DNA of 64,000 nucleotides, taken from Halichondria panicea. Its lineage: Eukaryota > Porifera > Demospongiae > Suberitida > Halichondriidae. The translations under genes and the position numbers were made by a program. The notes beneath the pieces are model-generated. The model made no database searches, was not told the DNA's origin, and was given only the letters and a program-made list of their open reading frames with translations. Position 1 is the first letter of the stretch. Every line of letters begins with the position of its first letter. Below, piece after piece: positions 4,814-43,682 of the stretch. The stretch is taken from contig NC_087377.1 of NCBI RefSeq assembly GCF_963675165.1, positions 4,588,042 through 4,652,041 of the forward strand. The letters are read 5' to 3'.

Positions 4814-4880
4814 ATGAAGACAGCTGCATTCATATTTGGCGTCTTGTTCCTGTGGTCATGGCAACCAGCCAGCGCACAGA
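4814..4880 (+). CDS. Exon 1: start codon and signal peptide
   Basis: Encodes [20 protein letters not shown] then AQ: a basic N-end, a hydrophobic core and small residues before a likely cleavage after ASA. The exon ends in phase 1 at a strong donor (GTAAGT) and joins in frame to the Sushi exon at 8728. An almost identical exon sits at 46428-46494. An unseen exon in the 3.8 kb intron cannot be excluded. Confidence 0.8.

Positions 4881-43682: not shown

Follow-up and report, generated by a model that had tools for sequence, protein, structure and literature searches.

A putative chimeric 70-exon gene of the sponge Halichondria panicea, with a MUC4-type ectodomain cassette lying within a Sushi/Calx-beta/EGF gene

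The window analyzed here, a stretch of 64,000 nucleotides from Halichondria panicea (C1:4588042-4652041), carries on its forward strand a gene of 70 exons that begins with the ATG of a signal-peptide exon at 4814 and ends with a TAA at 43682. Joined together, the exons yield an intact frame of 11,637 nt, uninterrupted by internal stops (3,879 codons when the stop is counted). All 69 introns, with a median length of 265, have GT-AG boundaries, and 61 of them lie in phase 1, with four each in phases 0 and 2. The start, the end, the exon count and the whole-codon sum put forward in the first-pass annotation are borne out by this reconstruction, as is its statement that nearly all introns are of phase 1, and at the level of sequence the gene is real. 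Its predicted product has 3,878 aa, a mass of 419 kDa and a pI of 4.05, with 563 acidic against 130 basic residues and 54 N-glycosylation sequons. It also contains five RGD motifs, four of them within one repeated EGF type, against 0.76 in 2000 shuffles (maximum 6), an excess that we treat as only a lead. The window is without any Rfam match. In window positions, the features are as follows:

4814..4880, +: exon 1, a signal peptide of 22 residues, with the promoter region upstream at about 4485-4813.
8728..9917, +: exons 2-4, a weak Sushi and a weak Calx-beta-like domain (Pfam); first copy of module A and a copy of exons 29-31.
10335..11258, +: exons 5-6, two EGF-CA domains (EGF_3 5.8e-25, EGF_CA 7.7e-22) at the end of the front module A.
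11564..12985, +: exons 7-9, the N-terminal domain of the core family, without Pfam match; start of the putative cassette.
13226..14559, +: exons 10-12, core-family extracellular domains conserved in the paralogs, Ig-like by eye only.
14685..16758, +: exons 13-15, the NIDO domain (aa about 1014-1179; PF06119, 7.2e-19) and the segment following it.
16880..17076, +: exon 16, the AMOP position between NIDO and VWD, with AMOP unrecognized.
17993..18930, +: exons 17-19, the VWD domain (PF00094, 3.2e-13) with a GDPH site (G at aa 1372).
19392..19637, +: exon 20, a MUC4-type C8-3 domain (C8-3_MUC4, PF23263, 1.6e-9).
19803..22338, +: exons 21-28, a segment that is beta-rich by eye, and EGF domains; end of the putative cassette.
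22570..24699, +: exons 29-31, the rear Sushi (0.00066) and Calx-beta-like (0.034) domains; second copy of module A.
25115..35628, +: exons 32-52, 21 EGF exons, mostly a repeated triplet A-B-C of three EGF types, with exon 52 distinct.
36059..37959, +: exons 53-56, a pair of Calx-beta positions; Pfam recognizes the second.
38297..39907, +: exons 57-62, Sushi (1.1e-11), a HYR-like part (by eye) and Sushi (1.4e-7).
40351..43682, +: exons 63-70, an unrecognized tail without a transmembrane segment, with the TAA at 43680-43682.
44077..46266, +: copia-like remnants (by eye) beyond the gene, of which 45313-46266 is 93% alike to 239-1205.
46344..48274, +: a further promoter and signal-peptide exon with part of intron 1, 93% identical to 4730-6678; later exons were not found.

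The exons were assembled with a purpose-written exon chainer, whose codon usage was seeded from clear EGF and NIDO frames and which started from generic splice matrices and was then self-trained; it holds no phase preference. It returned a single long gene on the + strand, and its predictions agreed exactly with 51 of the 70 exons under the generic splice matrices and with 59 after self-training. The remaining exons were curated by hand, with phase continuity and the upstream paralog as partial guides: 10 boundaries were altered, exon 1 was added, and small predicted exons were removed (nine inside the gene and 12 outside). A predicted exon of 27 nt at 40066-40092 was left out of the model, though it is predicted in the upstream neighbor too. 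On 4.5-44 kb, the chainer scored 1267 on the forward strand, 99 on the reverse and at most 4.2 in five Markov-random sequences, with control parameters that were trained on the same region and so favor the forward strand. The chainer overran 43.7 kb into retroelement remnants and merged neighboring genes both in the 1.1 Mb cluster discussed below and upstream of the paralog. Since it fuses neighbors, its joining of the two halves of the gene carries no weight, and it is no witness for gene ends. The extension of the gene beyond 43,682 into 44-50 kb that it proposed was rejected, the exons there lying partly in copia-like remnants.

In what follows, we refer to exons 7-28 as the core and to the other exons as the frame. 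Immediately upstream of the window, at C1:4557-4587 kb (L009-L012), lies a paralog that combines the signal peptide of the frame, the core and the tail; the end of exon 70 is identical in the two genes. Copia-like remnants (by eye) follow each of them. The stray copy at 46344-48274 retains an intact frame in its signal-peptide exon, and the NIDO, core and tail searches listed nothing downstream of it near the window. Tandem repeats of ~0.9 kb, 75-84% alike, occupy 1669-4320 of the window and are shared with the region before the upstream paralog (L009 8.1-8.9 kb). A gene prediction in which a WW domain and ankyrin repeats are seen by eye runs on the + strand from about 57.5 kb of the window to about 3.3 kb of L033, and an ankyrin-like protein is predicted upstream of the paralog (L009 0.2-1.5 kb).

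The domain content was assessed with a Pfam scan of 19 segments of the protein, taken from outside exons 41-52. The NIDO and VWD domains named in the first-pass annotation are recovered at high significance (7.2e-19 and 3.2e-13), and in a PDB profile search with exons 13-20, FCGBP (3.4e-16) and MUC2 (0.001) were hit by the VWD part. The C8-3_MUC4 domain is present in all four core-family members scanned. The AMOP domain that the same annotation placed in this core was undetected: there is no match at E<=10 in the corresponding segment of the gene and none at E<=1 in four core-family members, and a genome-wide AMOP search returned 12 places, none of them in the core family, the window locus included. 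Its description of the core as MUC4/SUSD2-type holds as regards NIDO, VWD, the GDPH site and C8-3_MUC4, with AMOP undetectable. The proposed Ig domain likewise has no Pfam match in the segments scanned; exons 10-12 gave none save one at chance level. Pfam also gave nothing for the HYR-like exons 59-60, and FN3 had no match among the 19 segments. A search for nidogen G2F was uninformative, its controls being without match as well, and a single-sequence AF2 model of exon 7 (pLDDT 36.5) was not used.

EGF domains were assigned to 28 exons, in agreement with the earlier estimate of ~28 EGF-type domains; Pfam was run on 16 of these, including nine of the 21 exons of the array of exons 32-52, and exons 22-23 are weak (0.034). 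A calcium-binding EGF consensus is seen in 25 of 30 EGF exons, 19 of them among the 21 of the array, which makes the suggested calcium-dependent adhesion role plausible. The four Sushi domains counted previously are confirmed in half the cases: the two of exons 57-62 pass the Pfam cut-off (1.1e-11 and 1.4e-7), and the front-type copies fall just short of it (0.0012 in front, 0.00066 in the rear). The four Calx-beta domains reduce to a single clear one in exons 55-56 (1.3e-10), the positions in exons 30-31 (0.034) and exons 3-4 (0.11) lying under the cut-off and exons 53-54 having no Calx-beta match. Elsewhere in the genome, eleven similar-scoring Calx-beta matches stand in a row at C2:273-278 kb, about 406 bases apart. 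The idea of a mucus protein is not favored by the composition of the protein, which over its whole length amounts to 15.8% Ser+Thr and 4.1% Pro as an overall average. No transmembrane segment is present, the best 19-residue mean hydropathy anywhere in the protein being 1.66.

Searches of the 131-Mb assembly (39 contigs) reveal that the core and the frame each have relatives of a distinct gene type on the same chromosome. Exon 7, the first of the core, occurs at 23 loci, all on C1 and including the gene itself, to which the other 22 are 49-64% identical. Exon 15 occurs at 18 loci at 73% identity or more, again all on C1, with distant relatives (<=47%) also on C5 and C12. In a cluster at 1.06-1.17 Mb, tblastn with all 70 exons recovers four genes that carry exons 7-28 in order and two more with some of them; exons 1-6 and 29-70 never come out as the best match to any place in it at E<=1e-3. 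After the equivalent of exon 28, these genes continue into a SEA-like segment (by eye), a strongly hydrophobic stretch and a short tail. Pfam finds no SEA match in this anchor region; its best 19-mer has a mean hydropathy of 3.14, versus the 1.66 that is the maximum in the window protein. Such anchor exons are found within 10 kb downstream of exon 15 at 13 of the 18 loci, the remaining five being the window gene, its neighbor, 3235985, 3765798 and 3772947. A signal peptide of the core's own type, found by pattern search, precedes four of the five core genes of the 1.1 Mb cluster. The NIDO-VWD stretch is 78-91% identical in the four core members compared.

More widely, there are 110 NIDO matches in the genome, with further clusters at C5:3.28-3.55 Mb, C8:6.57-6.61 Mb and C1:4.01-4.10 Mb, and several of the C8 matches are nearly complete in one frame. 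Two weak exon 7 matches, at C6:7377843 and C6:2396555 (minus strand), fall in open frames reported as 41,557 and 10,065 codons; to our knowledge, the former, if real, would rank among the longest single-frame proteins.

The frame appears as a gene type of its own at C1:2.898-2.915 Mb, where a gene of about 17 kb is known from match positions alone. Among the best 57 of 1487 candidate matches to the tail, exons 53-56, one middle-tail exon, 68 and 69 are matched at C1:2897601-2905921 (minus strand), in the window gene and in its upstream neighbor; outside these three places only the Sushi part is matched, and the matches listed for C1:2.90 Mb include none of the tail Sushi exons. The window gene holds two complete sets of the three-exon Sushi/Calx module, and among the best 150 of 1693 candidates C1:2910931-2911962 (minus strand) is the only other place at which all three exons are matched; seven EGF matches lie between the tail and module matches of the stand-alone gene, at 2906659-2910432. 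The DNA of 4730-4960, which includes the signal-peptide exon, is found at four places: the window gene, the copy at 46.4 kb (98%), the upstream paralog (93%) and C1:2914556-2914729, minus strand (78%). There is no NIDO, VWD, exon 15 or exon 7 match at C1:2.898-2.915 Mb. The largest gap between the matched exons, in the tail, is about 3.2 kb and cannot accommodate a core, which takes about 10 kb. In the exons matched among the best 57 of 1487 candidates, the two frames are 45-73% identical. Judged by this distance and without a tree, the frame genes seem to have split before the core joined one of them.

The way the two parts meet in the window gene is informative. The core is a unit of 22 exons and 5,202 nt, divisible by 3, that runs from phase 1 to phase 1. 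The same module flanks it on either side, as exons 2-6 in front and as exons 29-33 behind; the two copies differ with a dS of 0.21 and a dN/dS of 0.32. The intron between exons 28 and 29 has only 231 bases. We searched both the window and the upstream neighbor for the parental parts of a core gene: a core-type signal peptide had no match below E 0.05, and anchor exons were not found. The sole promoter and signal-peptide exon found for the window gene is of the Sushi/Calx-beta gene type. A core with neither its own signal peptide before it nor an anchor after it, the 231-base intron and the exclusively frame-type promoter indirectly support a single gene that joins the Sushi/Calx-beta front to the NIDO-VWD core. 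This evidence bears on the chief alternative, two genes in tandem, of which the first (signal peptide, Sushi, Calx-beta, two EGF and core) would occupy 4814 to about 22.4 kb and the second (Sushi, Calx-beta, EGF array and tail) 22.57 to 43.68 kb. The rear half does resemble the body of the stand-alone gene from Sushi to tail, and the core genes at 1.1 Mb do span exons 7-28 before their anchor. However, the searches found neither an anchor exon beyond exon 28 nor a signal peptide or promoter ahead of exon 29, and the gap is 231 bases; the frame runs on in phase 1; and in the upstream neighbor, which lacks exons 29-31, a separate rear half would have no start. We consider two tandem genes unlikely. 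As a gene on its own, either half would look out of the ordinary, and the joint is present twice; a single chimeric gene is therefore the favored reading.

The upstream neighbor further bears on how such a chimera could have come about. In it, exons 2-6 and 29-31 are absent save for a 14-residue EGF scrap, so that only the window gene shows the duplication flanking the core, which may have arisen later. Between the two putative chimeras, dS declines along the gene, from 0.59 in exons 7-10 through 0.26 (exons 11-12), 0.22 (exons 13-20) and 0.18 (exons 21-28) to 0.07 in exons 53-69. The corresponding dN/dS is 0.31 in the core, 0.33 in exons 7-10 and 0.35 in exons 53-69, a comparison that leaves aside exons 32-51; exons 16, 59 and 69 have values near 1, on few changes. 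Given this gradient, and given that exon 15 of the window gene matches a copy at 3.64 Mb (86%) as closely as it does the neighbor (85%), the data fit either one fusion with subsequent gene conversion or two insertions.

Taken together, we think it probable that this is one chimeric gene, in which a phase-symmetric ectodomain cassette of 22 exons was inserted within a frame gene to give a secreted, calcium-dependent matrix linker. From the comparison of exons and genes, we infer a single transcript, an insertion event and a protein product. The frame would be the gene type that exists alone at C1:2.898-2.915 Mb, with its signal peptide, Sushi, Calx-beta, EGF run, Calx-beta and tail. The cassette, exons 7-28, would have entered its EGF region, phase 1 to phase 1. 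Its source would be the ectodomain of a putative membrane-protein family—N-terminal domain, NIDO, the segment at the AMOP position, VWD with GDPH, C8-3 and EGF—and it would have arrived lacking both its signal peptide and the anchor exons, to be flanked now by two Sushi-Calx-beta-EGF-EGF modules. The first-pass annotation had spoken of Calx-beta, Sushi and EGF-CA domains being added to a core; the direction was probably the reverse, with the frame gene receiving the core. The product is predicted to be a secreted, very acidic, calcium-stiffened linker of about 420 kDa, whose NIDO/VWD part could bind whatever the membrane family binds and whose EGF array might act as a spacer to the Calx-beta/Sushi tail. 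The GDPH site may allow the chain to cleave itself into two parts that stay held together. As the cassette is symmetric, its in-frame skipping would yield a protein of the stand-alone type.

A more ambitious version, which we regard as rather improbable, is that the gene is the soluble arm of an expanded family of recognition receptors. Here, ~20 tandem membrane proteins with a conserved NIDO-VWD stalk and a divergent N-terminal domain would serve self/non-self or symbiont recognition in membrane and soluble forms, two of them having been made into secreted bridging proteins by insertion of the whole ectodomain into a matrix-linker gene, with skipping of the head optional. Such proteins would present the variable head to the matrix or to partner cells. 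The dN/dS of exons 7-10 counts against positive selection.

The opposite direction of change, in which an ancestral chimera lost parts to give rise to both the membrane family and the stand-alone gene, might appeal in that all the pieces lie on a single chromosome and in that the direction is judged here from distances alone, without a tree. The distances themselves speak otherwise. Besides the 3.64 Mb copy and the neighbor, exon 15 of the window gene is 81-83% identical to eight other copies at 3.2-3.65 Mb, with one further locus there split into two pieces of 87% and 73%; the identity is 76-77% for two copies at 3.77 Mb and 74-77% for the 1.1 Mb cluster. By this measure, the core of the window gene does not look like an outgroup to its family. 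Rather, it is nearer to one group (81-86% versus 74-77%), while its frame shares no more than 45-73% identity with the stand-alone gene, the pattern to be expected from a later arrival of the core. The core genes at 1.1 Mb moreover own a signal peptide and anchor exons. We hold an ancestral chimera to be quite improbable. That the locus is nested or decaying, with a core copy stranded inside another gene and unexpressed in this form, would fit the retroelement remnants and the stray promoter and signal-peptide copy around the gene, but with 70 exons free of stops or frameshifts, a dN/dS of about 0.3 in both parts and a joint present in two genes, it is very unlikely.

Shuffling of EGF, Sushi and Calx-beta domains is common in animals. 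What is unusual about a cassette inserted into a frame gene, as we propose here, is that the insertion would be internal and comprise 22 exons, and that both parental gene types persist on the same chromosome. As close relatives of both parents survive there, the event can be reconstructed and dated. In the cited passages, domain gains are ascribed mainly to the joining of neighboring genes, with insertion of exons into introns accounting for <10% of confident gains (PMC2926785), and internal changes are argued to be underestimated (PMC3927616); the gene bears on this disputed question of neighboring-gene joining versus internal exon shuffling (PMC2926785, PMC3927616). If the proposal is true, a membrane-bound MUC4-type ectodomain was turned into a secreted matrix protein, a testable route to the origin of matrix proteins.

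A limited literature search, in which absence proves little, turned up no account of such a domain architecture; NIDO, AMOP, Calx-beta and sponge were not found together in it, nor was "NIDO domain" with Calx-beta, nor sponge, aggregation factor and wreath. One counterpart is within the genome itself: the stand-alone gene at C1:2.898-2.915 Mb, to judge from match positions only, shares with the window gene the promoter and signal peptide, the Sushi-Calx-beta module, the EGF run, Calx-beta and the tail exons, and differs in that the NIDO/VWD core is unmatched and the tail Sushi is not among the matches listed. SUSD2 and insect Mesh are NIDO-AMOP-VWD-Sushi proteins with a transmembrane segment. 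Like the window gene, they have NIDO and VWD with Sushi later in the chain; unlike them, the window gene has no detected AMOP and no transmembrane segment, and possesses EGF arrays, Calx-beta and a module duplication. SNED1, a secreted protein with NIDO, EGF repeats, Sushi and FN3 that is not known to have VWD or Calx-beta, resembles the window protein in combining NIDO, Sushi and many EGF domains in a secreted chain (as predicted for the latter), whereas the window protein has no FN3 match in the segments scanned and contains VWD and Calx-beta. Sponge aggregation factors carry Calx-beta arrays with VWD. They share with the window protein the format of a large acidic extracellular protein in which Calx-beta is paired with VWD, and the window protein differs by its MUC4-type NIDO core, its EGF arrays and its single clear Calx-beta domain.

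By way of context only, in the response of the sponge Dysidea avara to symbionts, the genes listed in the cited passage include one with a nidogen-like domain and another with Calx-beta (PMC11229196). As described in the cited passages, MUC4 is putatively self-cleaved at the GDPH within its VWD domain (PMC8660890), and the cnidarian mucin4-like proteins combine NIDO-AMOP-VWD with a transmembrane segment and, in one case, SEA (PMC9080433), which places them nearer to the membrane paralogs than to the window gene. MUC4-like proteins are described there as membrane-bound, as the anchored core genes at 1.1 Mb would be, whereas the window gene is without an anchor (PMC8660890, PMC9080433). The window gene further departs from them in its undetectable AMOP, its 21 extra EGF exons, and the Sushi and Calx-beta domains before and behind the core; judged by overall composition, no mucin repeat is evident. 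With MUC4 and its cnidarian mucin4-like relatives, as far as these accounts go, it has in common the order of NIDO followed by VWD with GDPH, the MUC4-type C8-3 domain and EGF (PMC8660890, PMC9080433).
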